Assembly (NCBI GenBank): GCA_017463615.1
Contig: JAFTOU010000028.1
Coordinates: 1-64,000, forward strand
Direction: 5' to 3'
Source: Alistipes sp.
GTDB taxonomy: Bacteria; Bacteroidota; Bacteroidia; Bacteroidales; Rikenellaceae
Length of the DNA stretch: 64,000 nucleotides
The notes beneath the pieces were generated by a model. That model was not told the origin of the DNA, did no database searches, and was given only the letters and a program-made list of their open reading frames with translations. The position numbers and the translations under genes were made by a program. Shown in pieces: positions 12,550 to 61,158 of the stretch. Each line of letters begins with the position of its first letter. The first letter of the stretch is position 1.

Positions 12550-12680
12550 ATTTTAGCGTGATAAGGCGGATACCTACTTCCGCTAGCAAAAAATCCCAGC
12601 AATGGCTGTACGCATTTAGCACTATCCATCGTTGGGATTTTTCGCCGAGCGTGGTATCTACCGCCTTCTGACGCTAAAAT
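12550..12680. repeat. R1 nested-palindrome element, copy c
   Basis: Outer arms ATTTTAGCGT and ACGCTAAAAT, then AAGGCGG / CCGCCTT. The inner stem is AAAATCCCAGCAATGG / CCATCGTTGGGATTTT around GTACGCATTTAGCAC. The outer arms differ by two bases from copy e at 51336, and both sides have changed together. It lies between convergent genes. Confidence 0.85.
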
Positions 12681-12710
12681 AGGTGCGAGGAGGAAGGGTC
12701 GTCGTAGACG

Positions 12711-12743
12711 AGCCAATAGCCAACAGCCAATGGCCAATAGCCA
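12711..12743. repeat. R3 AGCCAATAGCC units
   Basis: Tandem AGCCAATAGCC, AACAGCC and AATGGCC units. They are preceded by GAGGAGGAAGGGTCGTCGTA, which recurs at 58655-58675 and in reverse at 14968-14990. Confidence 0.7.
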
Positions 12744-12773
12744 AAAAAAGCGACCCGAAAAGGTCGCTTTTTT
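12743..12773 (-). terminator. Intrinsic terminator of the Cys-rich lipoprotein gene
   Basis: AAAAAAAGCGACC, loop CGAAAA, GGTCGCTTTTTT. On the minus strand the stem is followed by a T run, 18 bases after the stop of the small lipoprotein gene. The hairpin is symmetric and could also stop plus-strand transcripts from the activator gene. Confidence 0.85.
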
Positions 12774-12790
12774 GTTGTTGGCAGTTGCGC

Positions 12791-13021
12791 TTACTCTGCA
12801 GGTGCTGGAGCTGGAGCCTCAACAGGAGCCTCTGCTGGAGCAACCTCAGCTGGAGCCTGCTGGCAATCAGGGCACTCGGTGCACTCAGCAGCCTTCTGCT
12901 CGCACTGCTCGCACTCAGCCTTGCCGCAGCAAGCATCAGACTTCTTATTATTATTGTTACCTGCGCAGCTAACCATTGCAACAGCTGCAACCAATACTAC
13001 CAGTGAAAGAATCTTCTTCAT
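12791..13021 (-). CDS. Small cysteine-rich lipoprotein
   Basis: 76 residues. The lipoprotein signal ends MVSCAGN near residue 19. The mature part has a short Asn/Lys stretch, then seven more cysteines in about 30 residues (CC, then single Cys spaced three to five apart), then a Pro/Ala/Glu tail (PAEVAPAEAPVEAPAPAPAE). The cysteine spacing could bind metal or form disulfides; the tail could span the periplasm or wall. I do not recognise the family. The Ala/Pro/Glu codons are highly repetitive. It is a single gene with its own promoter and terminator. Confidence 0.8.
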   Translation of the reverse strand: MKKILSLVVLVAAVAMVSCAGNNNNKKSDACCGKAECEQCEQKAAECTECPDCQQAPAEVAPAEAPVEAPAPAPAE

Positions 13022-13058
13022 AGTCCTAAAAATTTAAGTTAAACAAATGATTGTCTCA

Positions 13059-13066
13059 CAAAATTA
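13059..13066 (-). promoter_or_regulatory. -7 element for the Cys-rich lipoprotein gene
   Basis: The minus strand reads TAATTTTG, with TTTG 20 bases upstream (13087-13090). It predicts a leader of about 35 bases. Confidence 0.6.
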
Positions 13067-13125
13067 AATATATTTTATGTAACAAACAAATATTTTTCTA
13101 TAAAAATGACGCTATTGTCCCATTT

Positions 13126-14896: not shown

Positions 14897-14900
14897 ACCA

Positions 14901-14908
14901 CAAAGATA
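14901..14908 (-). promoter_or_regulatory. -7 element giving a leaderless DUF2520 mRNA
   Basis: The minus strand reads TATCTTTG, then TGGT, then ATG. The layout (A/T hairpin, TATCTTTG, four bases, ATG) is the same as at the HAD gene at 226. Confidence 0.7.
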
Positions 14909-14909
14909 C

Positions 14910-14948
14910 AAAAAAATAGAAGTTTGTGTCGCAAACTTCTATTTTTTT
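14910..14948. terminator. A/T hairpin between the DUF2520 promoter and upstream repeats
   Basis: AAAAAAATAGAAGTTTG and CAAACTTCTATTTTTTT form a perfect 17-bp stem with a five-base loop. The arms are nearly identical to the hairpin at 17320-17355, so this is a dispersed module as well as a likely bidirectional terminator. Confidence 0.65.
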
Positions 14949-15020: not shown

Positions 15021-15078
15021 TGCGCAACTTTTGTACTGCGTGGCGTCGCGGAAGCGACCATTAGTAACCCTTAATAAA
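15021..15078. repeat. R2 right half
   Basis: It contains GCGCAACTTTTGTACTGCG, GTGGCGTCGCG, GCGACCATTAGTAACCC and TTAATAAAA, matching the right side of full R2 copies. The left TTAAAGGC arm is missing. Confidence 0.7.
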
Positions 15079-15120
15079 ATTCCGCTAAAAGGCTAATAGC
15101 CAATGGCCAACAGCTAATAG

Positions 15121-15250
15121 CCAAAAAAAAGGAAGAAGCCATCGCCCCTTCCCTTCGGAAAAAGATTTCCTATAACAAAACATTACAACGGATACGCGCA
15201 AAAAAGAACGGTTATGAATAGAAGATATGGCGTATCCTAATATTTGTACA
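15121..15250 (-). ncRNA. Candidate small RNA
   Basis: Read leftward, a TACCTTTG promoter (15252-15259) is followed by GGATACGC (15231-15238), which pairs perfectly with GCGTATCC (15189-15196) across a 34-base loop. A small GGAAA/TTTCC hairpin (15158-15171) comes next. A final stem AAGGGAAG / CTTCCTT then runs into eight T residues, as in an intrinsic terminator. The sequence has no convincing open frame and lies in otherwise unexplained DNA. The predicted transcript is about 125 bases. I cannot assign it to a known RNA family. Confidence 0.45.
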
Positions 15251-15251
15251 G

Positions 15252-17285: not shown

Positions 17286-17292
17286 TCTGAAA

Positions 17293-17316
17293 AGCTAATA
17301 GCCAACAGCCAACAGC
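17293..17316. repeat. R3 units before the TonB receptor promoter
   Basis: GCTAATAGCC, AACAGCC and AACAGCC in tandem, directly before the A/T hairpin and promoter, the same order as at the window start. Confidence 0.65.
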
Positions 17317-17319
17317 CTA

Positions 17320-17355
17320 AAAAAAATAGAAGTTTATGTAAACTTCTATTTTTTT
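17320..17355. terminator. A/T hairpin before the TonB receptor promoter
   Basis: AAAAAAATAGAAGTTTA and TAAACTTCTATTTTTTT form a 17-bp stem with almost no loop. The arm sequence is shared with 14910-14948. It probably ends transcription from the SulP gene and borders the promoter at 17358. Confidence 0.65.
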
Positions 17356-24696: not shown

Positions 24697-25407
24697 ATGC
24701 TCCGCAAATTGATACATTCACTTCGGTCGCTTATCGTCACGCCCACATGCCCTATCTGTGGTCGTCGCCTGCAACACTCCGAGGGCTTCATCTGCCTGGA
24801 GTGCAACCTCTCAGCCCCCTATACACTGCTGTGGCAGAGCCGCGAGAACGCTATGGAGCAGCGATTTTGGGGTGTTGTGCCCATTGAGCGTGCCGCCGCC
24901 TTTCTATGGTTTACGGAGGGTAGCCGCTACCGCGCGCTCATACACCAATTCAAGTATCATGGGCAGTGGTATCTGGCAGAGAATATGGGTCGCTGGTTCG
25001 CCTCGGAACTCAAGGTCGGCGACTTCCTTGAGGGCGTGGAGCTTATCGTCCCCGTGCCCCTGCATTGGCGCCGCCGTATCATGCGCGGATATAACCAGTC
25101 GGAACATATCGCCCACGGCATCAGCCGCGCTACAGGCATCCCTTGCTGCTTTAGCGCCGTTAAGCGCACCGTCCATAACCCTCCTCAGGCGGGGATGAAG
25201 TATATCAACCGCTGGGATAATATCAATAACATCTTCTCCGTCCCCCACCCTGAGCGCCTTATCGGTCGCCATATCCTGCTCGTAGACGATGTCTTCACCT
25301 CTGGCGCCACTCTCCTCGCCCTCGCTACCCAGATTCACCGCGCCTGCAACGGAAATGTTAAGATATCTGTTGCTACTCTCGCCGCATCCTCCCACCTTGT
25401 TTTGTAG
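24697..25407 (+). CDS. ComF family protein
   Basis: 236 residues. The N-terminal zinc-binding segment is CPICGRRL...FICLECN. A phosphoribosyltransferase-like domain follows with RGYNQSEHIA, VKRTVHNPPQAGM and the PRPP-loop ILLVDDVFTSGATL. Homologues assist DNA uptake, but in Bacteroidetes the role is not established. It starts nine bases after the DUF2156-GNAT gene. The last codons and the stop overlap the left arm of a degenerate R1 copy. Confidence 0.9.
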   Translation: MLRKLIHSLRSLIVTPTCPICGRRLQHSEGFICLECNLSAPYTLLWQSRENAMEQRFWGVVPIERAAAFLWFTEGSRYRALIHQFKYHGQWYLAENMGRWFASELKVGDFLEGVELIVPVPLHWRRRIMRGYNQSEHIAHGISRATGIPCCFSAVKRTVHNPPQAGMKYINRWDNINNIFSVPHPERLIGRHILLVDDVFTSGATLLALATQIHRACNGNVKISVATLAASSHLVL

Positions 25408-25470
25408 TGAAAAGCACGCATTTGCGGCACATCCCTTAAAATTAGCATCGGCTGTTTTAGTCCGGATGGC
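25400..25470. repeat. R1 element, degenerate copy d
   Basis: It keeps the left side (TTTTGTAGTG, GCACGC, TGCGGCACATCCCTTAAA) and part of the inner hairpin (CGGCTG, TTTTAGT), then jumps to the tail GGATGGCGATATATT that precedes R2 elsewhere. The right arms are deleted. It looks like copy b with an internal deletion. Confidence 0.65.
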
Positions 25471-25476: not shown

Positions 25477-25575
25477 TTAAAGGCTATTAAGAGTGGCGCA
25501 AACTCTTTCTGTACTGCGTAGCGTCGCGTCAGCGACCATTAGTAACCCTTAATATTCCTTAATGCCCCTTAATAA
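25477..25575. repeat. R2 TTAAGG palindrome, copy 3
   Basis: Left arm TTAAAGGCTATTAAGAG; centre TACTGCGTAGCGTCGCG and AGCGACCATTAGTAACCC; right arm CCTTAATGCCCCTTAATAA. R3 units follow at 25590-25619, and then the dnaB promoter. Confidence 0.8.
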
Positions 25576-25589
25576 AAAAATCCTCTAAA

Positions 25590-31236: not shown

Positions 31237-32028
31237 ATGAAACAGAGGATATTAACTATCATATTGACCCTTGTCGCGGTGCTGTTTGCGACCGATGCCT
31301 TTGCGCAGCGTATGCCCGAGCGAGGCCTTGTGCGTAAGGGTAACCGCCAGTACAATCGTGCCGACTATAAGGGTAGTGTAGACAGCTACTCGCGTGCGCT
31401 GCAGCACGACCCAAATAGCTTTGAGGCGAAGTTTAATACCGCCAATGTGCAGTACCGCATGGCGTTTCAGGATACCACGACGGTAAATAACCAGATGCTC
31501 AGCAAGGCGGAGAATACCCTGCGCAAACTGGCTCAGGACTCCACCCGCACAGATATTGAGCGTGGCGATGTGCAGTACAACCTCGGCAATACCCTCTTTG
31601 CGCAGCAGAAGCTGCAGGATGCGCTGGACTGCTACCGCAACGCTATGCGATTTAACCCCGACGATAAGGAGGCTAAGTTCAACTATGCCCTGACTAAGGA
31701 GCTGCTCAAGCAACAGCAAAATCAGCAAAATCAGCAACAGCAGAACCAAAATCAAGACAATCAGAACCAAGACCAAAATCAGCAACAACAGCCTGAAAAT
31801 CAGGACGATAAGCAGGATAATCAGGACCAGCAGAACAACCAGAACGAGCAGGATAACCAAGACCAAAATCAAGACCAGCAGGACGAGCAACAACAGCCGT
31901 CCGAGCCTCAAATCTCCGAGCAGGAGCAGCAGGCGATGTTAGAGGCCATCCAGGCTCAGGAGGATAAGACGCAGGAGAAGCTGAAGGAGAAGAAGGGCGT
32001 CCTCATCCGCGGCGGCAAGAACTGGTAG
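31237..32028 (+). CDS. batC: BatC-like TPR protein with a Gln/Asn-rich tract
   Basis: 263 residues. Signal peptide ending DAFAQ. TPR-like repeats occupy about 28-155 (RKGNRQYNRADYKGSVDSYSRAL, YNLGNTLFAQQKLQDALDCYRNAM). Residues about 157-235 consist almost only of Gln, Asn, Asp and Glu. The protein ends with a basic EKLKEKKGVLIRGGKNW tail. In Bacteroides batC follows batA and batB; here it comes first. It is translated directly after the membrane protein, which ends one base earlier. Confidence 0.8.
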   Translation: MKQRILTIILTLVAVLFATDAFAQRMPERGLVRKGNRQYNRADYKGSVDSYSRALQHDPNSFEAKFNTANVQYRMAFQDTTTVNNQMLSKAENTLRKLAQDSTRTDIERGDVQYNLGNTLFAQQKLQDALDCYRNAMRFNPDDKEAKFNYALTKELLKQQQNQQNQQQQNQNQDNQNQDQNQQQQPENQDDKQDNQDQQNNQNEQDNQDQNQDQQDEQQQPSEPQISEQEQQAMLEAIQAQEDKTQEKLKEKKGVLIRGGKNW

Positions 32029-34332: not shown

Positions 34333-36852
34333 ATGAAAAGGTTTCTTCTTTCACTTTTCTGCCTTTCGGCTCTGGTGAGTGGTTGTACCGACACCGCTCC
34401 GGAGATTGAGAAGCAGATACCGGAAAAGCTGCAGACCCCAATGGGATTGGCTATCGACGAGGCGACGGTAACATCGACCTCCTTTGTAGCCTCTTGGGAA
34501 GCTCTTGCAAGCGACGATGTAAAGGCTTATGTGTTGGAGTACAAGCCTATTGATGGCTCTGAGTACACCGAGCAGAGTGCCTACACCAACAACTGCACCG
34601 TAACGGGTCTGCAGCACTCTACAACCTATGTTGTGCGTCTGCGTGCCCTCTCGGCTCATGGCGAGCAGTACCACTCGGACTACACCGCAGAGCTGGAGCA
34701 GGAGACGCTCATCATCTTTGTTGTCACCCCGCCAGAGAATCTCCGCATCGTGGATAGCAAGCTCACATCCTCCTCTGTGCTTGTGGAGTGGGATGCTGTG
34801 GAGAACGCTATCGGCTATGTTGTCACCTGCACAGCTGCCGATACAGGCGCGGTAGTTACAGAGCGTACCGAGCAGACAAGCCTCACTGTTCGCGGTCTTG
34901 AGCCAAATACTCAGTACGACATCAAGGTTAAGAGCTGCTCTCGCTCGGGCGAGCAGTACGACTCTGAGTACAGCAGCAGCCTTGTGGCAAAGACTAAGGT
35001 TCGCGGTGGCGGTATCTTTACCTCTTCGGATCTGATGGCGTTTGTTCAGGCGCTGGAGAGCGAGTATGCCGAGACGGGAACTGCTTACGGTATGGACTAT
35101 GTAGACGAGAATGGCGTTGTCAATATCAAGGACAACATTGATATGGCAGGTATTGAGTTTGCGCCAATCTCCAACTTCAGCGGTATCCTGGATGGTAATG
35201 GCTTTACAATCAGCAACCTCAAGATTGCCACCTATGGCGAGAATACAGGTCTGTTTGCAACCCTTACAAATGCTACTGTTCGCAATCTGAACCTTGACAG
35301 CAGCTGCACCATCACCGTTACAAACCTCTCTGGCGCATCCTATGCGGGTGCTGTTGTGGGTAGCATTTCGGGCGACTGTACCTTTGAGAATATCACCTCA
35401 AATGTAACTCTTTCGGGTGCTACATATATGGGCGGTATCGCAGGTTCGGCTACTAAGGCAAATGGCACAGTGCTCTTTAAGAACTGTAAGAACTACGGTA
35501 CATTGACCTACCCAGATATGACAGCCGTTGCCAATATATCATTTGGTGGTATCTGTGGCGGAAGTGAGAAGGGTGTAACCTACGACGGCTGTACAAACTA
35601 TGGCGCTATAACTGTGAACTCTACAGGTGGAAATAAGTATAATGTTGCTGGCGGTATCGTGGGCATCGGCTCCGACCAGGATATGTTCGGTTGTGCTAAT
35701 GAGGGTGCGATACAGATGAACTGCCGCGGCGCGAACAACATCTACGCTGCAGGTATGGTTGGTCGTGCACACCGCATACACGCCGAGAACTGTACAAATA
35801 GCGCAAATATCTCTATCTCAGAGAGCTCTGACGGTCAGGCGGTTTACTTGAGTGGTCTGTTTGGAACTATTGAGGGTACTGCTCTCCGCGAGACTAAGGT
35901 CTACAAGTGCTCTAACAGCGGAAATATTGCTGTCAAGTGTACCAACGCTAAGGATGTTCAGGTGGGCGGTATTATGGGCTGGATTAAGGTATCTGGTTGC
36001 GAGATTAGCGAGTGTACCAATAGCGGAAACCTCTCTATGACCTCTGCCTATACAGGCTCTTATGTTGCAGGTATCGTATCTATCCAGACCAGCACCTTGG
36101 CTGAGTCGGAGATTAAGACCATATCAAAGATTCTCAACTGCTCTAATACGGGAAATATCAGCTACACTGGCTCTGAGAGCAATAGCGCATGGAATGCCCC
36201 TGCAGGTATCTGCGGTAAGTGTACTGCCGACTTCCTTATAGAGGGTTGCGAGAACCGCGGTAACATCACCTCGGACAATACTACCCGTTCAAATCCGGCA
36301 GGTATCGGCTCGGAGATTAACTGCGATGTTGTGAACTGTACCAACTACGGTACTATCTACACCACCTCTTGGCATCAGGACTACTATAGCGCAACAGCGG
36401 GTATTATCGCTCGCTACCAGACTAAGGGCAAGACCATTCGTGGCTGTAAGAACTACGGCACAGTCGCCTATGCTGGCAAGGGCTTCAGAAAGGCAAATGC
36501 CAATAAGGGTATTGTCGGTCAGGCGGGTATCTGCGCTCTGCTCTACGCTGGTGATGTGGAGAACTGCGAGAACTACGGTACTATCCTGGGCAACACCTAC
36601 GACGCATCGCACGGCTTGGCATCTTACCTCAACGCTAAAGGTGCTATCGTCGGCTGGGGCGGTGCAAATTCGGCGGTAACTATCTCTGGTTGTAAGGTCG
36701 GCGGCGCTATTGGCGAGTGCGACGAGACTACAGAGGATCTGGGCGCAAGCAAGGCTACATCTATTACAGCCGATAACTATACCAATTATATATATGGTGG
36801 CGACGCTAAGAATGGCGTTACCGCTACTGGTTGCACATTTGGTCAGCAATAA
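34333..36852 (+). CDS. Large lipoprotein with two Fn3 domains and Cys-containing beta-helix repeats
   Basis: 839 residues. The lipoprotein signal ends ALVSGCTD near residue 18. Two fibronectin type III domains follow (about 38-125 and 132-222; strands like FVASWEAL and VLVEWDAV). From about 260 on there are many 20-40-residue repeats of the GLUG / right-handed beta-helix kind, with GGICGGSEKGV, NCKNYGTL, GCTNYGAI and NCENYGTI. A Cys recurs just before N(Y/S)G in most turns. The last 85 residues are closely similar to the gene at 37073. Probably a surface adhesin or carbohydrate-binding protein. The target is unknown. Confidence 0.82.
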   Translation: MKRFLLSLFCLSALVSGCTDTAPEIEKQIPEKLQTPMGLAIDEATVTSTSFVASWEALASDDVKAYVLEYKPIDGSEYTEQSAYTNNCTVTGLQHSTTYVVRLRALSAHGEQYHSDYTAELEQETLIIFVVTPPENLRIVDSKLTSSSVLVEWDAVENAIGYVVTCTAADTGAVVTERTEQTSLTVRGLEPNTQYDIKVKSCSRSGEQYDSEYSSSLVAKTKVRGGGIFTSSDLMAFVQALESEYAETGTAYGMDYVDENGVVNIKDNIDMAGIEFAPISNFSGILDGNGFTISNLKIATYGENTGLFATLTNATVRNLNLDSSCTITVTNLSGASYAGAVVGSISGDCTFENITSNVTLSGATYMGGIAGSATKANGTVLFKNCKNYGTLTYPDMTAVANISFGGICGGSEKGVTYDGCTNYGAITVNSTGGNKYNVAGGIVGIGSDQDMFGCANEGAIQMNCRGANNIYAAGMVGRAHRIHAENCTNSANISISESSDGQAVYLSGLFGTIEGTALRETKVYKCSNSGNIAVKCTNAKDVQVGGIMGWIKVSGCEISECTNSGNLSMTSAYTGSYVAGIVSIQTSTLAESEIKTISKILNCSNTGNISYTGSESNSAWNAPAGICGKCTADFLIEGCENRGNITSDNTTRSNPAGIGSEINCDVVNCTNYGTIYTTSWHQDYYSATAGIIARYQTKGKTIRGCKNYGTVAYAGKGFRKANANKGIVGQAGICALLYAGDVENCENYGTILGNTYDASHGLASYLNAKGAIVGWGGANSAVTISGCKVGGAIGECDETTEDLGASKATSITADNYTNYIYGGDAKNGVTATGCTFGQQ

Positions 36853-36925
36853 ACACTTTTGATTTTCATAAATTTCAGTACTCAGGGGGCTGCCCATGTA
36901 GCCCCCACACAAAAACAGAACAACA

Positions 36926-37054
36926 ATGACACAGAAGAAGATCTACACAACCCCTATCATTGAGGATATGGTATGTTTGGTTGAGCGCGGTTTTACAGTT
37001 TCAGAGCCAGGCGCGAGCTTTAAGGATTATACCGAGGAGGAGCTCGGCTGGTAG
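36926..37054 (+). CDS. 42-residue peptide gene
   Basis: A short frame, ATG at 36926 to TAG at 37054, encoding MTQKKIYTTPIIEDM at its start and ending with KDYTEEELGW. It has no signal peptide. The shape (basic start, TTPxIE, central hydrophobic stretch, then a Ser/Gly/acidic C-terminus ending in an aromatic) resembles many short unannotated Bacteroidales peptides found beside surface-protein genes. It sits 73 bases after one repeat lipoprotein and 18 before the other, on the same strand, with codon use like its neighbours. The function is unknown. Confidence 0.6.
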   Translation: MTQKKIYTTPIIEDMVCLVERGFTVSEPGASFKDYTEEELGW

Positions 37055-37072
37055 TAGTGTAACAATAAAAAA

Positions 37073-39586
37073 ATGGAGAAAACTATGAAAAATATTAGCA
37101 GATTTTTTGTTGCGGCACTTGCTCTTATTGGCGTAACATCTTGTAATACAGCACCTGTTGAGGAGGTAAGCCTCTCAACTACAACTATTACGGCGTCTTT
37201 TGCCGATAGCCGTACAACACTCTCTGAGGGTGTTAAGACCCTCTGGGCAGAGTACGACGCTATTGAGGTTAATGGCGTAACCTTCACCCTTAAGTCTGGC
37301 GCTGGCGAGGCTACCGCAGTTTTTGAGTCTACAACCCCACTGGCAGCGGCTGAGAGCTATACAGCTACATACCCTGCAGGCGTAAGTGCTATCGCTAAGA
37401 GTCAGATTGCCCTCGCTGGTACCTTTGACCCAGAGGCTGCACTGGCTGAGGCTACTGGTAGCGATGCAAATAACCTCGTTTTTGAGCACCGCCACGCGCT
37501 GCTTAAGTTTGAGCTTGCTGCCCCTGCCTCTAAGGTGGAGATTGCGGGCTACGAGATTGCTGCCCCTAATGGTCAGATGGAGGCTCAGACTGCCTACTAC
37601 CTCGCTGTTGAGGCTGGTACATACGCAGGTCTTACCGCAACTGTTGATGGCGTAGCGGTTAAGAGCACCGAGAGTAGCGTTGAGGTTGCAAATGGTAAGA
37701 TTCTCAACCTCGGCACTCTGCCAAATGGCACTGCTGCAGAGCAGAAGGGTATCCGCACCGCTGCTGACCTTGTCGCTTTCGCTGCAAACCCTGCAGGCGA
37801 TGAGTATAAGGACGAGAATGGCGTTGTGAATATCCTCGCAAATATCGATATGAAGGATGTTGCTTGGACCCCAATCACCGACTTTGCTGGTACTCTTGAT
37901 GGTAACAACCATACTATTGATAATCTGGTGGTTGCAACTACTGAGTCAAGCGCTGCGCTGTTCAAGAATTTGACCGATGCGACTATTCAGAATCTTACAA
38001 TCGGTAGCGGTTGTAGCTTCTCTGCCTCTGGCGTAGATAGCAATAACAACACCTATGTAGGCTCTGTTGTTGCTCGTGTTCTCACTGGCGCAACTATTAA
38101 GAATGTGACAAACTACGCAGCTGTTAGCGGTGGTAGCCAGATGGGTGGTATCTGCGGTGCTGCAGACCTTAAGAAGGGCGATGTGCTGTTTGAGAACTGT
38201 ACAAACTATGGCTCTGTGACCTTCCCTGCACAGGCAACTACTGCAAATACTGATATTGGCGGTATCTGCGGTCATAATGAGACTGGCGTAACATATCGCA
38301 ACTGCGTGAACGAGGGTGCTGTAAGCAACTACTCTACAAGCGGTGCGCACTATAACCGAGTTGGTGGTCTTGTAGGTCTTGCTTCTGACCATGTTATGGA
38401 GGATTGTACCAATAAGGGCGAGGTTAAGATGGATAGCCGTGGTGCAAGCCGTATCTGGGTCGGTGGTCTTGTTGGTAACTGCTACCGAGGCACCGTTCTG
38501 AATGTATCAAATGTTGGTAATGTGGTTGTTCCAGACGCTACACAGAGTACTTCAGCTGCATATATCGCAGGATGTTTCGGCTCTTTGGAGGGTAATACAT
38601 ATCCAACAGACGGCTCTTACTATAGCTATAAGGGCTGTAGCAACTCGGCATCAATCGCTATAAATATCACCCCTACATCAGACACCGTTCTTGGTGGTAT
38701 TATCGGTCTGCTCTATCTGCCAGATGTAAAGATTGAGGAGTGTACAAATAGCGGAGCAATGACTCTGAGCTATGGTAAGGCTAACTCTTGCCTTGGTGGT
38801 ATTCTCGGTGTTGCAGCTAAGAAGTCAGAGACTAAGATTGACAAGGGAGCAGTGATTCTCAACTGCGAGAATACTGGTGCTATAACCTTTAACGAGACTA
38901 CAAATACCGACTGGGTACATGTCGGAGGTATTGTTGGTGGTCACACACATACTCTTGCATTCTCTATTGAGGGGTGTACCAACCGTGGTGCTGTAACCGT
39001 ATCTTCTAAGAGCCGTTCAAACCCTGGTGGTATCATCTCTCAGGCTCAGTGCGATGTTAAGGACTGCACAAACTACGGTACAATCTACTCTACATCTACT
39101 CATGTAGACTACTATAGCGGTACTGGTGGTATTGTAGCTCGTCTGAACACTTCAGGTAAGACCGTAAGTGGCTGTACAAACTACGGTACTATTATATATA
39201 ACGGTAAGGGCTTCGGAAGTGCAAGTACCAAGAATGGTATCGTAGGTCAGGGCGGTATCGCAGGCCTTGCAATCTATGGTACAATTACAAACTGCGCAAA
39301 CTATGGTGTAGTTCTGGGTAACGACTATGACGCATCTCTGGGCGCAGCAGAGTATATAAACGCTAAGGGCTCTATTGCAGGATGGGCTGCAGAGAAGGGC
39401 GCTGTAACCATCTCTGGCTGTACTGTTGGTGGTGCAGTTGGCTCTTGCGTTGATACTGACGAGGATATGGGTGCTGCTAAGGCTACGGCTGTTACCGCCG
39501 ACAACTATGCAGACTATATCTACGGTGGTGACGCTGGTAAGGGCGTAACTGTTACCGACTGCGTATTTGGTACTGCTGCTAATTAA
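37073..39586 (+). CDS. Large lipoprotein with fimbrillin-like N-terminus and Cys-containing beta-helix repeats
   Basis: 837 residues; the ATG at 37085 (MKNISRFFVAALALIGVTSC) is an equally likely start. The lipobox Cys is near residue 24. Residues about 30-210 resemble a fimbrillin-type domain (TTITASFADSRTTLSEG, LWAEYDAIEVNG, LVFEHRHALLKFEL). From about 225 come GLUG-like repeats with NCTNYGSV, GCSNSASI, NCENTGAI and GCTNYGTI. The C-terminal half aligns with the protein at 34333 although their N-terminal modules differ. Probably a surface protein. Confidence 0.82.
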   Translation: MEKTMKNISRFFVAALALIGVTSCNTAPVEEVSLSTTTITASFADSRTTLSEGVKTLWAEYDAIEVNGVTFTLKSGAGEATAVFESTTPLAAAESYTATYPAGVSAIAKSQIALAGTFDPEAALAEATGSDANNLVFEHRHALLKFELAAPASKVEIAGYEIAAPNGQMEAQTAYYLAVEAGTYAGLTATVDGVAVKSTESSVEVANGKILNLGTLPNGTAAEQKGIRTAADLVAFAANPAGDEYKDENGVVNILANIDMKDVAWTPITDFAGTLDGNNHTIDNLVVATTESSAALFKNLTDATIQNLTIGSGCSFSASGVDSNNNTYVGSVVARVLTGATIKNVTNYAAVSGGSQMGGICGAADLKKGDVLFENCTNYGSVTFPAQATTANTDIGGICGHNETGVTYRNCVNEGAVSNYSTSGAHYNRVGGLVGLASDHVMEDCTNKGEVKMDSRGASRIWVGGLVGNCYRGTVLNVSNVGNVVVPDATQSTSAAYIAGCFGSLEGNTYPTDGSYYSYKGCSNSASIAINITPTSDTVLGGIIGLLYLPDVKIEECTNSGAMTLSYGKANSCLGGILGVAAKKSETKIDKGAVILNCENTGAITFNETTNTDWVHVGGIVGGHTHTLAFSIEGCTNRGAVTVSSKSRSNPGGIISQAQCDVKDCTNYGTIYSTSTHVDYYSGTGGIVARLNTSGKTVSGCTNYGTIIYNGKGFGSASTKNGIVGQGGIAGLAIYGTITNCANYGVVLGNDYDASLGAAEYINAKGSIAGWAAEKGAVTISGCTVGGAVGSCVDTDEDMGAAKATAVTADNYADYIYGGDAGKGVTVTDCVFGTAAN

Positions 39587-48875: not shown

Positions 48876-51335
48876 ATGAAAAGACTTTTAATACTTCTGG
48901 GTGGTATCTTCACCTTTGTCACCCTCTCGGCACAGCCTATTACCGACGAGGCTAAGAGCCGCGCCGCTGAACTTGTCTCTAAGATGACTTTAGAGGAGAA
49001 ACTGGACTATATCGGTGGATATAATAGCTTCTACATCCGCGCAATTCCTCGTCTGGGTATTCCAGAGATTCGTATGGCAGACGGCCCTCAGGGCGTGCGT
49101 AACAATACCCAGAGTACTATGTTCGCTTCGGGTATTGCTGCTGCAGCTACTTGGAACCGCGAGGCTGTATATAATATGGGTGTAGGTCTTGGTCAGGATA
49201 GCCGCGCTCGCGGTGTGCATATCCTTCTGGGTCCTGGTGTGAATATCTACCGCTCGCCTCTTTGTGGTCGTAACTTTGAGTACTTCGGCGAGGACCCATA
49301 CCTTGCAGCTCAGACCGCTGTTCAGTATATCAAGGGCGTTCAGAGTCAGGGTACTATGGCTTGTATCAAGCACTATGCAGCCAACAATCAGGAGTGGGAT
49401 CGCCACAATGTCTCTTCGGATGTAGACGAGCGTACCCTGCACGAGATATACCTCCCTGCCTTCCGCGCTGCTGTTGAGCAGGCTGGCGTAGGCTCGCTGA
49501 TGTGCTCCTATAACTTGGTTAATAGCGTACACGCTTCGGAGGATAAGTATCTGAGCATTGAGGTGCTGCGTAATATGTGGGGCTTTGAGGGTATTCTGAT
49601 GTCCGACTGGAACGCAACCTACTCGGCTATCAACGCTGCAAATGGCGGCCTTGACCTTGAGATGCCAAGCGGTAAGCTGATGAACTACAAGCACCTGCAT
49701 CAGGCTGTAGCCGATGGTGTTGTGGATGTTCGCAATATTGACAAGAAGGTGCAGCATATCCTGCAGACCCTCATCTCCTTCGGCTTCTTTGACCGTCCAC
49801 AGAAGGACGAGAGTATCTCTGAGCGCAACCCATTCTCCGACAACGCATCGTTGGAGCTTGCTCGCAATGGCGTCGTAATGCTTAAGAACGATGGTATCCT
49901 TCCGTTCAAGAAGGGCAAGGTTGTCGTTGGCGGTATGCACGCAAATACAGTCCCTACAGGTGGCGGTAGTGGCTTTGTACACCCATTTGAGACCTGCTCC
50001 GTTTCGGAGGGACTGTCGCAGGTTAAGGGCTATAAGGTCTTTACTACAAACAACCTTGTAAGCTACTCTTTGGAGGGTAAGTTCTACACCTCTGCAGACC
50101 TTGCTCAGGCGGGTCTTAAGGCTGAGTACTTCAACAATGTGAAGCTGGAGGGCACCCCTGTACATACATCCGTGGAGACTACTATCAACAAAAACTGGAA
50201 GAAGGGCTCTCCAAAGGCGGGCGTTGTCAATGCCGATAAGTTCTCTATCCGTTGGAGTGGTGTTCTTTGCGTGCCTGAGAGGGAGCAGATGACCATCACC
50301 GTGCGTGGCGACGATGGCTACCGTATGTTTATTGATGGCAAGCAGGTGCTGGCTCACTGGAGCAACCACGGCGTTTCGCAGCGCACCTATACCTTCACTG
50401 CCGAGGCTAACCAGAAGTACGATGTCCGCATTGAGTACTTTGATAACTCAAGCGACGCTCGCGTGCATGTGAACTTCTATAACAACTCCTATGTGGAGCA
50501 GAATGCAGCCGCTATCCGCTCTGCAAATGCAGTTGTTATGTGCGTGGGCTTTGACTCAAATACCGAGAAGGAGAACTCCGACCGCACCTTTGAGCTCCCT
50601 TATGATCAGGGCGAGCTTATCCGTAAGGTTGCAGCCATAAATCCAAATGTTATCGCCGTAGTAAATGCAGGTGGTGGCTTTGAGATGGCAAGCTGGATGG
50701 ATAGCGCTAAGGCTATCCTGCTGGCGTGGTACCCAGGTCAGGAGGGCGGTCAGGCTATCGCCGAGATTATCTCTGGTAAGATCTCGCCAAGTGGTCGCCT
50801 GCCAATCTCTATTGAGCGCAAGCTGGAGGATAACCCTACTTGGGGCAGCTACTACCATAACCTTGATGTCAAGGTGCGCAACAACCCTTACCTGCGCGTG
50901 AACTATAAGGAGGGTCTCTTCCTCGGCTACCGTGGCTATGACCGCAAGGAGGTGAAGCCTCTGTTCCCATTCGGCTTCGGTCTGACCTATACTACATTTA
51001 AGTATAGTAACCTGAATGTTACCCCTACCCAGAACGGCTACCTTGTAGAGTTTGATGTTACCAACACCGGTAAGGTCGCTGCTGCCGAGGTTGCACAGGT
51101 CTATGTGGGCTATAACGACGAGAGCGTACCACACCCAGTAAAGCAGCTCAAGGGCTACGATAAGGTCACCATCGCCGCTGGCAAGACCCACCACTTCGCC
51201 GTAGAGCTCCCAGCCTCCGAGCTGACCTACTACGACATCATCTCCCACAGCATGGTTGATGCCTCTAAGGATGTTGTCATCTATGTAGGCTCTTCAGCCG
51301 AGGAGATTCATCTCCAGCAAACTGCTACAAGATAG
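48876..51335 (+). CDS. GH3 beta-glycosidase with an inserted PA14 domain
   Basis: 819 residues. Signal peptide MKRLLILLGGIFTFVTLSAQ. The GH3 N-terminal domain has RLGIPEIRMADGPQGVRN, GRNFEYFGEDPYLA and the nucleophile aspartate in GFEGILMSDWNATYS near residue 248. The C-terminal GH3 domain is interrupted by a PA14 domain (about 410-550, RGDDGYRMFIDG). WYPGQEGGQAIAEIISG and a C-terminal Fn3-like domain follow. This architecture is typical of beta-glucosidases that act on oligosaccharides. Last gene of the surface locus; an R1 copy starts at its stop codon. Confidence 0.94.
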   Translation: MKRLLILLGGIFTFVTLSAQPITDEAKSRAAELVSKMTLEEKLDYIGGYNSFYIRAIPRLGIPEIRMADGPQGVRNNTQSTMFASGIAAAATWNREAVYNMGVGLGQDSRARGVHILLGPGVNIYRSPLCGRNFEYFGEDPYLAAQTAVQYIKGVQSQGTMACIKHYAANNQEWDRHNVSSDVDERTLHEIYLPAFRAAVEQAGVGSLMCSYNLVNSVHASEDKYLSIEVLRNMWGFEGILMSDWNATYSAINAANGGLDLEMPSGKLMNYKHLHQAVADGVVDVRNIDKKVQHILQTLISFGFFDRPQKDESISERNPFSDNASLELARNGVVMLKNDGILPFKKGKVVVGGMHANTVPTGGGSGFVHPFETCSVSEGLSQVKGYKVFTTNNLVSYSLEGKFYTSADLAQAGLKAEYFNNVKLEGTPVHTSVETTINKNWKKGSPKAGVVNADKFSIRWSGVLCVPEREQMTITVRGDDGYRMFIDGKQVLAHWSNHGVSQRTYTFTAEANQKYDVRIEYFDNSSDARVHVNFYNNSYVEQNAAAIRSANAVVMCVGFDSNTEKENSDRTFELPYDQGELIRKVAAINPNVIAVVNAGGGFEMASWMDSAKAILLAWYPGQEGGQAIAEIISGKISPSGRLPISIERKLEDNPTWGSYYHNLDVKVRNNPYLRVNYKEGLFLGYRGYDRKEVKPLFPFGFGLTYTTFKYSNLNVTPTQNGYLVEFDVTNTGKVAAAEVAQVYVGYNDESVPHPVKQLKGYDKVTIAAGKTHHFAVELPASELTYYDIISHSMVDASKDVVIYVGSSAEEIHLQQTATR

Positions 51336-51465
51336 ATTTTATCGTGATAAGGCGGATACCTACTTCCGCTAGCAAAAAATCCCAGCAATGGCTGTACGCT
51401 TTAGTACTATCCATCGCTGGGATTTTTCGCCGAGCGTTGTATCTACCGCCTTCTGACGATAAAAT
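51336..51465. repeat. R1 nested-palindrome element, copy e
   Basis: Outer arms ATTTTATCGT and ACGATAAAAT, then AAGGCGG / CCGCCTT. The inner stem is AAAAATCCCAGC-ATGG / CCAT-GCTGGGATTTTT around GTACGCTTTAGTAC. It begins on the base after the GH3 stop. It is very close to copy c at 12550 except at paired positions in the outer arm. Confidence 0.88.
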
Positions 51466-51566
51466 CGGTGCAAATAGTAATCGGCGGTACAAGCGGGATG
51501 GCGCAACAATGGCAAAATGTCATTAAATCGCGCTAAACACTATCGCGAAGCGATACTTCTAAAAAA

Positions 51567-56332: not shown

Positions 56333-58276
56333 ATGAAAAGACTATTAACCTGGTCTCTGCTCCTCGCCACAGCGCTCTTTGCAGCGTGTGGCGGAGGAGA
56401 CGAGCCTACAGATGAGCCTAACATCCCAGATAATGGGGCGTTGGGTGTCCAGATTTCGGGTATTGTAGCGAACTACAACACCGCATCAATAAAGATTAAG
56501 ACCACCGGTGCAGCGGCAAACTACGCCTATGTTGCAGAGCCGTCGCCATATAGCGGCGAGAGCTATAGCGCCGAGCAGCTCTTTGCTGTCGGCACTACGG
56601 GCAAGTGTAGCGGCAACGCAACTACATTTACCGTCAATGAGCTTGTGGATAGCACCCCTTACACCCTCTTTGTGGCTGTCAAGAGTGCCGAGGGTGAGCT
56701 CTCGGAGGTCGCCTCTGCCGACTTAACGACCAAGACACTGCCTGAGTATGCCGTTACGGCTAAGCGTATGACGGGCTTCAACGCCTCTGTGCGCCTGCCG
56801 AAGGCTCTGGCAGAGGGAAATGTCGTCAAGTGGGCTATTACCGATTTGGCATACTACAACTACCACGGCGGTGAGGGTAGCGAGGAGCGTTGGCTCAATC
56901 GCAACGAGTCTATCTATGGCAACTACTTCACCTCGCGCTACGACTTTGTAATCTCTGAGGATACTCGCACCTTTACTAAGGATGGCGTCACATACTCCCA
57001 CTACGAGCCTATCATCCCTGGTCAGCCTGTTGTGCTGCTTATGGGCGAGTATGGCGCGGGAACACACCCAGAGTGGGGCGAGGGTCACTACTCTCCGCTC
57101 TTTGGTAGCGCTAACCCTTCGGGTTACTTCCGCAAGGAGACTATCGTTACCACCAAGCCATCCCTCCACACCTCTGCTCCTTCCATTACCGTGGATATCC
57201 GCCCGTCGGGCAAGGGTAACATCGTCATTGCACCTGCTACGGGGGCTGTCAGGAGCCACTACCTCCTGCTCACTAACGAGCAGTATACCCAGGCGCTCAC
57301 CCTGCTGGATGGACACACCTCCTACCTGCAGTGGTTCGTCTGCTCCGCCTTCGCTGCTGAGCACTTCGGTGCAAAGAGCATCACCAGCACCGTCGCCCTT
57401 GACACTGCAACGCTCAACCTCAATGCCGACGAGACCTACCACATCCTCATCTGTTCTTGGGCAGACGAGCAGGGTAGCAAGCAGTCGTTTGCAGAGAGCA
57501 CTTTCTGCCTACCACCGTCAGCACCACTGCCTACCGATAATACCATCATCGCCCACCGCGGCGGCTCTAAGGAGGCAGGTACGGGCTCTACTCCGGATAA
57601 CTCTATCGCCTCGCTCAAGTACGCTATGAGCCTGGGCTGCTACGCTTCGGAGGCAGATATCTACTGGACCAAGGATAATAAGATTGTTGTCGCTCATGCC
57701 GATAGTAACTGCAAAATCAATGGTCTCTACCCGTGGGAGAGCACCCTGGCACAGCTCCAGGCTGCAGGAAAGCTCGCAAATGGTGAGACCCTCCCATCTC
57801 TTGAGGATTATATCCGCGCCGTGATGGTCAAGGGCAGCAAGACCAAGCTCTGCCTTGATGTCAAGGCTATCACTAAGCCTACAACACACGACACCGAGGC
57901 CGTTAAGTCGTGCGAGCGCGCTTGCGAGATTATCAAGGAGATGGAGGCAGAGAACTTCTGCGAGTTCATCTGCTCTGGAAGAGCTAATATTACGAAGAAT
58001 TGCGCTAAATACGCTAACGCTATCGGTGTGCCTATCGGCGCTATGGGCGACTTCACCCCAAGCCAGTATAAGAGCTATGGCTACACTTGGCATAACCGCG
58101 ATAAGGGCTATGGCATCACCGCTGACGAGATAAATAGTTTTCTCAGCGCAGGCCTTGAGGTCTCCGTCTTTACCCTTGACACCGATGCCGAGTGGGCATC
58201 CATAGAGCCCTTCTACACCAAGCTGCGCGGCATCACCACAAATTATCCGAGCAAGATGCTGTCCAAACTCCGCTAA
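56333..58276 (+). CDS. Lipoprotein with C-terminal glycerophosphodiester phosphodiesterase domain
   Basis: 647 residues. Lipobox LFAACGGGDEP near residue 19. An Fn3-like domain (about 40-135) and a middle beta-rich region (about 140-395) of no recognised family precede a GDPD TIM barrel (about 398-647). The barrel starts TIIAHRGGSKEAG with the catalytic His and has STPDNSIASLKYAMSLGCYASEADIYWTKDNKIVVAHADS, which supplies metal ligands and the second His. It would release alcohol and glycerol-3-phosphate from phosphodiesters at the cell surface. 15 bases after recJ. Confidence 0.85.
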   Translation: MKRLLTWSLLLATALFAACGGGDEPTDEPNIPDNGALGVQISGIVANYNTASIKIKTTGAAANYAYVAEPSPYSGESYSAEQLFAVGTTGKCSGNATTFTVNELVDSTPYTLFVAVKSAEGELSEVASADLTTKTLPEYAVTAKRMTGFNASVRLPKALAEGNVVKWAITDLAYYNYHGGEGSEERWLNRNESIYGNYFTSRYDFVISEDTRTFTKDGVTYSHYEPIIPGQPVVLLMGEYGAGTHPEWGEGHYSPLFGSANPSGYFRKETIVTTKPSLHTSAPSITVDIRPSGKGNIVIAPATGAVRSHYLLLTNEQYTQALTLLDGHTSYLQWFVCSAFAAEHFGAKSITSTVALDTATLNLNADETYHILICSWADEQGSKQSFAESTFCLPPSAPLPTDNTIIAHRGGSKEAGTGSTPDNSIASLKYAMSLGCYASEADIYWTKDNKIVVAHADSNCKINGLYPWESTLAQLQAAGKLANGETLPSLEDYIRAVMVKGSKTKLCLDVKAITKPTTHDTEAVKSCERACEIIKEMEAENFCEFICSGRANITKNCAKYANAIGVPIGAMGDFTPSQYKSYGYTWHNRDKGYGITADEINSFLSAGLEVSVFTLDTDAEWASIEPFYTKLRGITTNYPSKMLSKLR

Positions 58277-58277
58277 T

Positions 58278-58402
58278 ATTTGGCGTGATAAGGCGGCATT
58301 AGCTGCACATCCCTCATATCCCCGAATGGGTAGTACGCCTTAGTACAACCCATCCGGGGATATTTCGCGATGCACACCTACTACCGCCTTTTGACGCCAA
58401 AT
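58278..58402. repeat. R1 nested-palindrome element, copy f
   Basis: Outer arms ATTTGGCGT and ACGCCAAAT, then AAGGCGG / CCGCCTT. The inner stem is ATCCCCGAATGGGT / ACCCATCCGGGGAT around GTACGCCTTAGTAC. Both stems differ from copies b, c and e and still pair. It begins one base after the stop of the GDPD gene. Confidence 0.88.
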
Positions 58403-58443: not shown

Positions 58444-58562
58444 TTAAAGGCTATTAAGGATGATTAAGGGTTATTAAGGGTTGCGCAACCATATCTGCAT
58501 TGCGTAGCGTCGCGCCAGCGACCATTAGTAACCCTTAACACTCTTTAATACCCCTTAATTAA
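58444..58562. repeat. R2 TTAAGG palindrome, copy 4
   Basis: Left arm TTAAAGGCTATTAAGGATG and GATTAAGGGTTATTAAGGG; centre TGCGTAGCGTCGCG and AGCGACCATTAGTAACCC; right arm CTTTAATACCCCTTAATTAA. Directly downstream of R1. R3 units follow at 58577-58605. Confidence 0.82.
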
Positions 58563-58576
58563 AAAATACCTCTGAA

Positions 58577-58604
58577 AAGCCAACAGCCAATGGCTAATAG
58601 CCAA
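58577..58604. repeat. R3 units, copy at 58.6 kb
   Basis: AAAGCCAACAGCC, AATGGCTAATAGCC units preceded by TACCTCTG. Followed immediately by R4. Confidence 0.7.
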
Positions 58605-58663
58605 CCGACGCTGCGGAGCGAGAGCAGAGGGAGCTTGCTCACTATGCCGAGCCGCGAGGAGGA
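58605..58663 (+). repeat. R4 59-bp dispersed segment, copy 2
   Basis: One mismatch to the reverse complement of 27469-27527. It is followed by GGAAGGGTCGTCGTAGACGA, which also occurs at 12690-12710. The 502-base gap before the phosphate transporter holds R1, R2, R3, R4 and the promoter, and no gene. Confidence 0.85.
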
Positions 58664-58748
58664 AGGGTCGTCGTAGACGAGCCAACAGCTTCAATGTTAA
58701 CAAATCGTTAATTTTCTGCGCGGCTTAAATTTTTCAAACAAAAGGTGC

Positions 58749-58756
58749 TATCTTTG
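58749..58756 (+). promoter_or_regulatory. -7 element of the phosphate transporter gene
   Basis: TATCTTTG, with a leader of about 17 bases to the ATG at 58779. Confidence 0.65.
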
Positions 58757-58778
58757 TAGAAATTCTAACTTAAATTTT

Positions 58779-61031
58779 ATGATAGAAATCTACATCGCGG
58801 TGGTGGCAGTTCTTGCCATACTTGCAGTTTCGGGACTCTATGTCGGCGTGACTAATGACGCTGTGAACTTTCTAAATTCGGCTATCGGCAGTAAGGCTGC
58901 CAAGATGCGCACGATTCTCATTGTGGCGTCGGTGGGTATCATTATCGGTGCGATGACCTCAAGTGGTATGATGGAGGTTGCGCGTAGTGGTATGTTCAAC
59001 CCGTCGCTATTCACATTTAAGGAGGTGATGCTCCTCTATGTGGGTGTGATGATTGCCAATGTGGTGCTGCTGGACCTCTACAACTCGTTGGGTCTGCCTA
59101 CATCTACCACCGTGTCGCTTATCTTCTGTCTCTTAGGCTCGGCGGTTGCCGTGTCGCTCTACAAGATTGCCACGGACGAGGCTATTACATTCTCCATGCT
59201 CAGCCAGTTTATCAACACCTCGCGCGCCATGGGTATTGTCTCGGCAATCCTGCTCTCGGTGGTGCTGGCGTTTGTCTGCGGTACGATACTGATGTATATC
59301 TCGCGTGTGATATTCTCCTTCCGCTATGTCAAGATGCTCAGCCGTCTGGGCGCTATGTGGTGCGGTGCTTCGCTCACCTCTATCGTCTACTTCGCCCTCT
59401 TTAAGGGTCTGAAGAATGTGCTTAGCGACAGTCCATTCATCGGCTGGGTGAACGACCATCTGCTCCTCGCGCTGCTCATCTGCTGGGCTGTATGCTCGCT
59501 GGTGCTCTTCTTCCTGCAGCTGTTCAAGGTCAATATCCTTCGCATCAACATCCTCGCGGGTACATTTGCCCTCGCCCTTGCCTTTGCGGGTAACGACCTT
59601 GTAAACTTTATCGGTGTGCCTATCGCGGGCTTTGACGCCTTTGCTGAGGCTCGCACGGCGGACGGTATCAACGAGGGCCTTATGATGACCGCCCTCACCC
59701 GTCCTGAGCAGGCAAACTTCCTCTATATCCTCGCTGCGGGACTTATTATGGTTGTCACCCTCTGGACCTCAAGCAAGTCTATGCATGTGTCGGAGACCGA
59801 GCTCTCGCTCTCTGCTCAGGGTGACGATGCCCCTTCGCAGCACTCCTCGTCGCTCTTCTCTCGTACGCTTGTTCGCGGTACTATCAATATGGTGCACTTC
59901 TTTGACCGCGTAACTCCTGAGCGCGTTAAGAAGTTCGTTGAGCGTCGCTTTGAGTGGGCAGATATTGAGCATAGCGGTGCTCCGTACGATATGATTCGTG
60001 CAACGGTGAACCTCACTACCGCCTCGCTGCTTATCGCTCTGGCTACATCGCTCAAGCTGCCACTCTCAACTACCTATGTCTGCTTTATGGTGGCTATGGG
60101 TTCGTCGCTCGCCGACCGCGCATGGGGTCGTGAGAGTGCTGTGTATCGTATCACTGGCGTTATGACCGTTATCATGGGCTGGTTCGTCACCGCTATCGGT
60201 GGCTTCCTTATCGCCCTGGCTGTCAGCGCACTGCTTATGTGGGGTGGCTGGATCGCCTTCGGCCTGCTTACGGCGCTGTGCATCTATATGCTTATCCATA
60301 GCAACCTCAAGAGCGCTAAGAAAGAGGAGGATCAGTCCGATAAGCTGCAGACCGTAAAGCTCTCCTCTACCGACTCGGTTTCGGAGTCTGTTATGTCGCT
60401 GGTAGATAGCACCATTAGCAACTCTACCCGCATCTATAACCGCACCCTTATCGCCCTGATGAAGGAGAACCGCCGTGCACTCAAGGAGCTCTCTACGGAG
60501 GCGTCGCAGATGTACGACCGCATCCATAACCTCAAGTACTCTATCGCCTCTACGCTCCGCCGTACATACGATAGCGATATGAACCTCTCGCTCTACTATG
60601 TGCAGGTTGTGGACTACCTGAACGAGATGACCAAGTCCCTTGTCCATATCACCCGCCCATCTTACGAGCATATTGACAATAACCACGAGGGCCTCACCCG
60701 CATCCAGACCGACGACCTTATCTCCGTCAATGCCGATGTGGACGCTATCTACCAGCGCATCCTCTATATGCTCACCAGCGGCGACTATAGCGATATTGAC
60801 CAGGTGCTTGATATGCGCGATACCCTCTTCACCCGCATCGCCGACCTCACTAAGACCGAGCTTGTCCGCATCCACGAGGGTGCCTCAAACTCAAAGTCCG
60901 GCATGCTCTACCTCGCCATCCTCGCCGAGACCAAGACCATGGTTCTCCAGTCCCGTAACCTGCTCAAGTCGCAGCGTTATTATATGGAGAATGAGGGGAA
61001 GGATATGAGGCGTCCTATCGCCCGCATGTAA
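58779..61031 (+). CDS. Pit-family phosphate transporter with PhoU-like C-terminus
   Basis: 750 residues. The membrane domain (about 1-510) has two inverted halves with the Pit signatures GVTNDAVNFLNSAIGS near residue 27 and AFAGNDLVNFIGVPIAG near 270, plus roughly ten to twelve membrane segments. Residues about 530-750 form a helical PhoU/DUF47-like domain (SVSESVMSLVDSTISNSTRIYN and on) facing the cytosol. It is expected to carry phosphate with a cation, and the fused domain may regulate it. Monocistronic; R1 begins one base after its stop. Confidence 0.92.
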   Translation: MIEIYIAVVAVLAILAVSGLYVGVTNDAVNFLNSAIGSKAAKMRTILIVASVGIIIGAMTSSGMMEVARSGMFNPSLFTFKEVMLLYVGVMIANVVLLDLYNSLGLPTSTTVSLIFCLLGSAVAVSLYKIATDEAITFSMLSQFINTSRAMGIVSAILLSVVLAFVCGTILMYISRVIFSFRYVKMLSRLGAMWCGASLTSIVYFALFKGLKNVLSDSPFIGWVNDHLLLALLICWAVCSLVLFFLQLFKVNILRINILAGTFALALAFAGNDLVNFIGVPIAGFDAFAEARTADGINEGLMMTALTRPEQANFLYILAAGLIMVVTLWTSSKSMHVSETELSLSAQGDDAPSQHSSSLFSRTLVRGTINMVHFFDRVTPERVKKFVERRFEWADIEHSGAPYDMIRATVNLTTASLLIALATSLKLPLSTTYVCFMVAMGSSLADRAWGRESAVYRITGVMTVIMGWFVTAIGGFLIALAVSALLMWGGWIAFGLLTALCIYMLIHSNLKSAKKEEDQSDKLQTVKLSSTDSVSESVMSLVDSTISNSTRIYNRTLIALMKENRRALKELSTEASQMYDRIHNLKYSIASTLRRTYDSDMNLSLYYVQVVDYLNEMTKSLVHITRPSYEHIDNNHEGLTRIQTDDLISVNADVDAIYQRILYMLTSGDYSDIDQVLDMRDTLFTRIADLTKTELVRIHEGASNSKSGMLYLAILAETKTMVLQSRNLLKSQRYYMENEGKDMRRPIARM

Positions 61032-61158
61032 ATTTTATCGTGATAGTGTGCCACCTACGGCACATCCCTCAAATCCCCGAATGGGTAGTACGCTTTAGTA
61101 CAACCCATCCGGGGATTTTTCACGATATACCGTATTTGGCGCACTCTGACGATAAAAT
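61032..61158. repeat. R1 nested-palindrome element, copy g
   Basis: Outer arms ATTTTATCGT and ACGATAAAAT. Second arms AGTGTGCC...TACGG against CCGTA...GGCGCACT. The inner stem is AATCCCCGAATGGGT / ACCCATCCGGGGATT around GTACGCTTTAGTAC. It combines the outer arm of copy e, the second arm of copy b and the inner stem of copy f. It lies between convergent genes. Confidence 0.88.

Follow-up and report, generated by a model that had tools for sequence, protein, structure and literature searches.

We describe here a family of nested palindromes of about 125-131 nt that lie at the stop codons of genes, and which was recognised in a 64,000-nt stretch of an Alistipes sp. metagenome-assembled genome (MAG) of 2.38 Mb (the window, which is the first 64,000 bases of contig C65, C65:1-64000, of genome G000). 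The family, which is that of Alistipes and near kin, is probably a non-autonomous mobile hairpin, which would insert as a single strand into the lagging-strand template at the ends of genes co-directional with replication and would then act as a terminator. Mobility is favoured first, since in related species these gene ends lack a copy and since the orientation of the copies follows the replication fork. As judged by comparison of sequences, the copies lie at or near stops, in the sense of the gene and with the fork, and are layered, newer copies standing between the gene and older remnants.

The original prediction, made from the window alone, had listed seven copies of one fold, and all seven are indeed there on the plus strand, as five complete nested palindromes of about 130 nt, one copy truncated where the contig starts and one that has decayed. 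The complete copies are found at 6755-6884 (the first base being the third base of the TAA of a GTP cyclohydrolase I gene, 6153-6755), 12550-12680 (6 nt past the stop of a sigma-54-activator-type regulator gene, 11432-12544), 51336-51465 (abutting the TAG of a glycoside hydrolase family 3 gene, 48876-51335), 58278-58402 (about 2 nt past the stop of a GDPD-domain gene, 56333-58276) and 61032-61158 (abutting the TAA of a PHO4-family phosphate transporter gene, 58779-61031), with stop-to-element distances of 0, 6, 1, 2 and 1 nt in this order, in agreement with the claim that the window copies start at or within six bases of a stop. The 3' part of a further copy occupies positions 1-83 (match 1-86 to positions 48-133 of R1, a covariance model built from five window copies, truncated 5'). 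The decayed copy (25400-25455, repeat family D18) retains its left part only, and the stop of the upstream gene, which ends at 25407, lies inside it. RNA folding of the five complete copies gave one nested hairpin each, with z-scores from -6.9 to -10.1 and with none of 200 shuffles as good for any copy. The exact 14-nt loop GTACGCTTTAGTAC occurs three times in the window and 51 times in the genome (none for a reversed-pattern control), and the remaining intact window copies carry one-base variants of it; the loop is nearly constant, as claimed, among the intact copies, but not at 25400, where the left half is recognisable and the loop and right half are not.

A search of G000 with R1 identified at least 109 matches, and 102 distinct copies were tabulated with their flanks (97 of the best 98 R1 matches and five from another search), contig C40 contributing further copies beyond these. 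Gene calls were made with an in-house hexamer script and not with a published gene finder. Ninety-five of the 102 copies lie behind a gene on the same strand, six behind a gene on the opposite strand and one without a gene. For these 95 copies the distance to the stop is at most 24 nt in 87, with 39 exactly at the stop, and 121-500 nt in 8. In 19 of the 95 the reading frame enters the element and terminates at a stop supplied by the element, mostly the TGA of GTGA. The pattern is repeated at independent loci from other genomes, where 70 of 72 copies have an upstream gene on the same strand, 62 of the 70 within 24 nt and 32 exactly at the stop. On C40, 26 of 34 copies are within 30 nt of the end of a minus-strand gene, as compared with 2.9% for positions drawn at random and 8.7% for random intergenic ones. 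A GGTGC-like motif also follows the right arm by 1-25 nt in 53 of 89 own copies (against 10% of control 25-mers) and in 21 of 79 copies elsewhere.

Two candidate target rules were rejected. At the 39 exact-stop sites several upstream positions, most of them third positions of codons, are enriched in C; as this enrichment is not repeated position by position at the other sites of the genome or in other genomes, it was attributed to codon bias and not to an upstream target motif. In-frame targeting, at the ribosomal A-site, was dropped as well, the intrusions into last codons occurring in several phases and nested copies following an out-of-frame TGA.

In four relatives we looked for the orthologues of 32 upstream genes, 18 of them at a negative distance and 14 drawn from the 54 at 0-3 nt. 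The search gave 93 readable gene ends, from 30 of the 32 genes, with a match within 40 nt in 16; 15 of these are in the sense orientation, 13 of them no more than 1 nt from the stop, and one more was counted as a loose look-alike. At the end of the phosphate transporter gene (58779-61031 in G000), G016 and G036 have other subtypes of the element, placed exactly at the stop, and G039, G040 and G005 have no copy at the orthologous end. Behind the orthologue of the gene at C47:16825, two subtypes are layered: in G040 a full copy of the first stands before a remnant of the second, and in G039 a full copy of the second comes first and is followed by the 3' half of the first and, beyond that, by a remnant of the second. 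It follows from this layering that new copies arrive at the stop and that older copies are lost from their 5' side. Left ends are also nested after GTGA, three deep in one relative, and in G051 there are 32 neighbouring pairs less than 250 nt apart, mostly 123-132 nt, all but one of which are head-to-tail. Copy number ranges from 0 to more than 100 among congeners. Taken as a whole, the family looks mobile.

The orientation of the copies follows replication, a point absent from the original prediction. All 34 listed copies of C40 are on the minus strand, on a contig with 187 minus and 127 plus genes (P 2e-8, a naive value that treats copies as independent), and 99 of the 102 tabulated copies share the majority orientation of their contig. 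The replication component of GC3 agrees with copy orientation on the well-sampled contigs C3, C40, C45, C51 and C64. The cleanest test is G168, which has a near-complete chromosome with a 3.79-Mb contig. Of its 20 distinct copies, those between 3.26 and 1.08 Mb, a stretch that spans the numbering origin, are minus, and those at 1.82-2.25 Mb are plus. Sampling of its GC skew gave negative values at 0.04-1.18 and 3.45 Mb, positive values at 1.37-2.90 Mb and values near zero at 3.09, 3.25 and 3.61 Mb; the 18 copies that lie in clearly signed stretches all agree with it. In G051, 102 of 112 copies are in the majority orientation of their contig. Hairpin instability does not account for such a polarity, because both strands of a near-palindrome can fold; orientation by the fork points instead to an insertion step that involves one strand, and it is not predicted by a pure terminator.

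The spread of the family was assessed with a wider covariance model (R2, 73 sequences), whose genome counts are lower bounds on account of stricter filters. R2 matches are present in at least 39 of 61 sampled Alistipes genomes (22 without a match), in at least 23 of 120 genomes at the family level, from 3 of 22 genera, and, in an order-wide sample of 198 genomes, in G000 alone apart from weak matches (E 1e-5 to 4e-4) in two genomes that belong to one other genus. These two distant genomes retain the same plan, GTGATAATG...CATTCTGAC, and one of the two has tandem copies, the first abutting the stop of an upstream gene that we take, by eye, to be thrA. At loci L431 and L433 of G310, from another family of the order, the tandem array of a distant relative of the element stands behind a gene resembling thrA, with units that seem to include the last codons of the gene. 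Named genomes were scanned with a degenerate 20-mer from the apex, and 80 of the 80 matches listed are titled Alistipes or Rikenellaceae. Related gene-end palindromes with the apex CACATAC....GTATGCT occur at L156 (G041), L157 (G004) and orthologues in G039 and G040, and were scored poorly or missed by the models. Viral contigs gave no match to one exact 20-base pattern, and plasmids and phages no BLAST match to one copy. Searches of a library of Creative Commons-licensed literature gave no earlier description of such a family. Copies are found within about 120 nt of contig ends on C28, C35, C52, C53 and C65 of G000; the element therefore probably breaks the assembly, and the true copy number may be higher than that assembled.

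Pairing within the fold covaries strongly. In an alignment (MAFFT) of 61 diverse copies under a 25-pair structure, standard pairs fill 90.9% of cells (70.3% after column shuffling), 296 cells show double-sided changes (103 shuffled) and the covariation score is 0.475 (0.141 shuffled), values that none of 500 shuffles reached, slid structures being only 35-53% paired; as the structure was derived from the alignment on which it was tested, these figures are tilted in its favour. The outer arms co-vary, as had been claimed: columns 8/133 are G-C in 34 sequences, A-U in 16, C-G in 8, U-A in 2 and U-G in 1, and unpaired in none of the 61. The constant parts are a GTAC....GTAC apex and an asymmetric foot, GTGATA/TCTGAC, with mismatches near the foot, in a unit of 125-131 nt. 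Pairing reaches one base beyond the T run (paired in 76 of 88 copies, against 27% for the next base outward), and in exact-stop copies this outermost paired base is the third base of the stop. The right end varies with it, being T in 24 of 24 such copies with TAA or TGA and C in 5 of 7 with TAG.

Inverted repeats can correct one arm from the other through templated mutation. At C28:14591 the two arms of the copy make up a 19-nt repeat which, judged from relatives, takes in the last codons of the gene itself, and arm-to-arm copying has therefore probably contributed to the covariation. The arms run into gene-specific flanks at C28:14591 (L061), C40:383245 (L082) and C51:237347 (L095), which suggests either that one arm was copied from the other or that the insertion was into a hairpin already present. 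The suggestion that the element is structured and under selection holds in so far as it is selected or recognised as a structure; the covariation is weaker proof of an RNA function than was assumed, because templated arm correction is possible and some arms extend into codons. No named family was known for the element, and indeed no Rfam family matches the window at gathering score; a permissive Rfam search of one copy (51300-51520) gave only sub-threshold microRNA hairpins.

The genes that precede the element are more codon-biased than their same-strand neighbours, which had likewise not been foreseen. Using C/(C+T) at two-way third positions as a proxy of expression, the median for leading-strand genes of C40 is 0.604 for the 26 with an element and 0.490 for the 158 others (P 6e-6); presumably, from inspection of the sequence, the former include GAPDH, EF-Ts and ribosomal protein L9. 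At 32 loci of other genomes the ratio is 0.639 (36 genes) vs 0.477 (111 genes), the upstream gene being the higher in 24 of 28 loci. All 26 element-bearing genes of C40 have a gap of at least 60 nt downstream, partly made by the element itself.

Such a bias might also be expected if the element were a device of the host, a terminator and stabiliser of mRNA 3' ends that selection maintains where genes are strongly expressed and that gene conversion or template switching, and not transposition, has carried from gene end to gene end. In 67 of the 86 copies measured, the inner GC-rich stem is followed by a run of at least four T; at several of the loci compared, relatives that lack the element show an ordinary hairpin behind the stop; one relative retains what looks like the inner hairpin alone as a terminator; and some copies are mosaics, all of which is in line with a host device. 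From these features a role as terminator is plausible. A host device does not, however, predict orientation by replication strand, and the 127 plus-strand genes of C40 carry none of the 34 copies; nor does it sit well with a copy number of 0 to more than 100 between congeners, or with tandem and layered copies, which are redundant for a terminator. We consider a host device unlikely. The original prediction had proposed an mRNA 3'-end or terminator device or a mobile palindrome; the mobile part is the one that the empty orthologous ends and the fork orientation support, the terminator part being plausible.

How might a mobile hairpin come to lie at stops? It would move as a single strand in folded form, in which the conserved asymmetric parts (the mismatches of the GTGATA/TCTGAC foot and the GTAC..GTAC apex) would be what is recognised, and would insert into the lagging-strand template, which is the coding strand of a co-directional gene. 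The target would be preferentially exposed at the ends of strongly expressed co-directional genes, and once inserted the element would supply the stop codons of its outer arms and an inner hairpin resembling an intrinsic terminator. Insertion at the stop would be tolerated because the element brings both. The signal of the stop is the least understood step, and could be either the exposure of the coding strand at active gene ends or a route linked to the mRNA. One might speculate further that the element reads two processes, inserting as a folded strand at the stops of active genes and only on the lagging-strand template, through a mover outside the Y1/HUH and reverse-transcriptase routes or templated by RNA on abundant mRNA ends; this more specific proposal is tentative.

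Among the known movers, a Y1 transposase (IS200/RAYT-type, PF01797) was found in none of 31 genomes of the genus, the controls being positive in 5 of 14, and was rejected. Reverse transcriptase (RVT_1) was rejected also, as it was found in 12 of the 31 genomes only, did not track copy number, and was not found in the high-copy genomes G010, G016, G032, G033 and G039 (MAGs 78-89% complete). These results bear on an insertion mediated by RNA, in which RNA of the element, joined to the 3' parts of abundant mRNAs, would be copied into cDNA that serves as a false Okazaki primer on the lagging-strand template of co-directional genes. Such a route would jointly explain the sense orientation, the gene-end site, the link with codon bias, the fork polarity and the loss of the adjacent older element. 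Against it stand the limited distribution of RVT_1, including the failure to find it in the five high-copy MAGs, and the nested copies that follow an out-of-frame TGA of an older copy, where translation termination itself is not the signal; we regard it as improbable.

The family also resembles repetitive extragenic palindromic sequences (REPs) and REPINs, which, in the passages of PMC3733652 and PMC3116915 that concern us here, are high-copy non-coding palindromes, mostly intergenic, near the 3' ends of genes, sometimes stop-providing and predicted to form hairpins in single-stranded DNA or mRNA. REPs are described in those of PMC3733652 as lying less than 20 bp from the 3' end of flanking open reading frames (ORFs), with termini that often provide the stop codon, so that the gene-end position alone is not new. 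There, the REP unit is a 20-40 bp palindrome with an unpaired GTAG or CGTC end tag, while the Alistipes element is a single multi-part hairpin of 125-131 nt with a fixed apex, nearly always sense to the upstream gene, leading-strand oriented and found in head-to-tail tandems. No REP-type end tag was seen at the palindrome boundary, where pairing at flanking position 2 is 27%. The family is set apart by its size and fold, by its orientation in the sense of the gene and with the fork, by its layered tandems and by the failure to find a REP transposase. That it is a REP/REPIN family moved by a Y1 transposase (RAYT/TnpA-REP) is very improbable, despite the palindromes, the high copy number and the closeness to 3' ends, when PF01797 is found in none of the 31 genomes. 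According to part of PMC6006769, subclass 2.6 of the Bacteroidetes RAYTs has atypical flanking structures and copies elsewhere in the genome, and IS200/IS605 elements, which have folded ends, insert as single strands into the lagging-strand template. Such a mechanism would predict the polarity seen in Alistipes. We use IS200/IS605 as a working analogy for the insertion mechanism, with the difference that the 31 genomes yielded no PF01797 protein and the stretches examined no ORF-carrying element.

Integron attC sites are long imperfect hairpins whose structure is conserved; they lie beside the stop of a gene and are fork-dependent, and one could imagine that the Alistipes element, which shares these traits, is a substrate of a tyrosine recombinase acting on folded single-stranded sites, as the integron integrase does on attC. 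The covarying hairpin, the start at the stop, the head-to-tail tandems and the orientation by the fork fit such a substrate. The copies are, however, scattered over the chromosome singly or in short tandems and do not bound cassettes, their conserved motifs are other than those we recall for attC (by eye, the GTGATA/TCTGAC foot is unlike its core sites), and orthologues show the element arriving without a gene, so that we hold this for very doubtful. For the foot, a kink-turn and an attC reading were weighed by eye only. Bacterial miniature inverted-repeat transposable elements (MITEs) are short, non-coding and repeated, with terminal inverted arms, as is the Alistipes element, which differs in that no target-site duplication was found, no parent transposon was identified in the stretches examined, and the whole element is one covarying hairpin. 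With intrinsic terminators it shares a GC-rich inner stem followed by T, and differs from them in its outer and middle stems, its mobility and its replication polarity. Polar chromosome-organising markers such as KOPS would account for an orientation that follows the replichore; with 22 of 61 sampled congeners lacking a match and a placement tied to stop codons, we give this explanation almost no credence.

Several observations weigh against a mobile, fork-oriented hairpin. No direct-repeat excess indicative of a target-site duplication was found at the flanks of 88 own copies, for k = 3-8, beyond a few copies. The comparisons of empty and filled ends are between species, which makes the exact position of the ancestral site a matter of inference. 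No link was found between the copies and a transposase or recombinase, a search for integrases and recombinases not having been made, and no distant pair of left and right ends enclosing an ORF, as in an autonomous long version, was seen in the stretches of G000 examined, the whole genome not being scanned. As to polarity, one 53-nt remnant on C40, left out of the 34, scored better on the plus strand; the sign of the GC3 component disagrees on C7, C14, C28, C34, C36 and C57, which are short contigs with few genes, and the component is zero on C65, the contig of the window, also with few genes; two of the 20 copies of G168 lie where the skew is near zero; and 10 of the 112 copies of G051 oppose the majority of their contig. 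Lastly, plus-strand genes of C40 have a C/(C+T) of 0.616, as high as the 0.604 of element-bearing genes, so that the proxy is valid within one strand only.

Other repeats are present in the window. A second dispersed repeat, GCGTAGCGTCGCG..CAGCGACCATTAGTAACCCTTAATA..., lies downstream of several copies (6973-7043, 25507-25576, 58493-58562 and 61241-61310) and also at 15029-15098. Minisatellite tails of the GCTAATAGCCAATGGC type stand just upstream of ordinary terminators (157-222, 12708-12773, 15095-15160, 17290-17355, 25606 and 58593), and are found 3' of many element copies genome-wide. A Q/N-rich low-complexity coding repeat (31699-31908) is contained in the ORF 31279-32028, and coding regions are duplicated at 1541-4760 and 36285-39259, three at a spacing of about 1.4 kb and two at 2.7 kb, 65-83% alike.

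If our explanation is true, the family would illustrate how a mobile palindrome can come to provide many of the terminator-like gene ends of a genome, and why assemblies of these genomes break at its copies. One insertion pattern would tie together gene ends, expression and replication direction in common gut bacteria. The element would then offer a search image for an enzyme acting on single-strand DNA, and its copies would be a natural reporter of fork direction and of the exposure of the lagging strand at gene ends.

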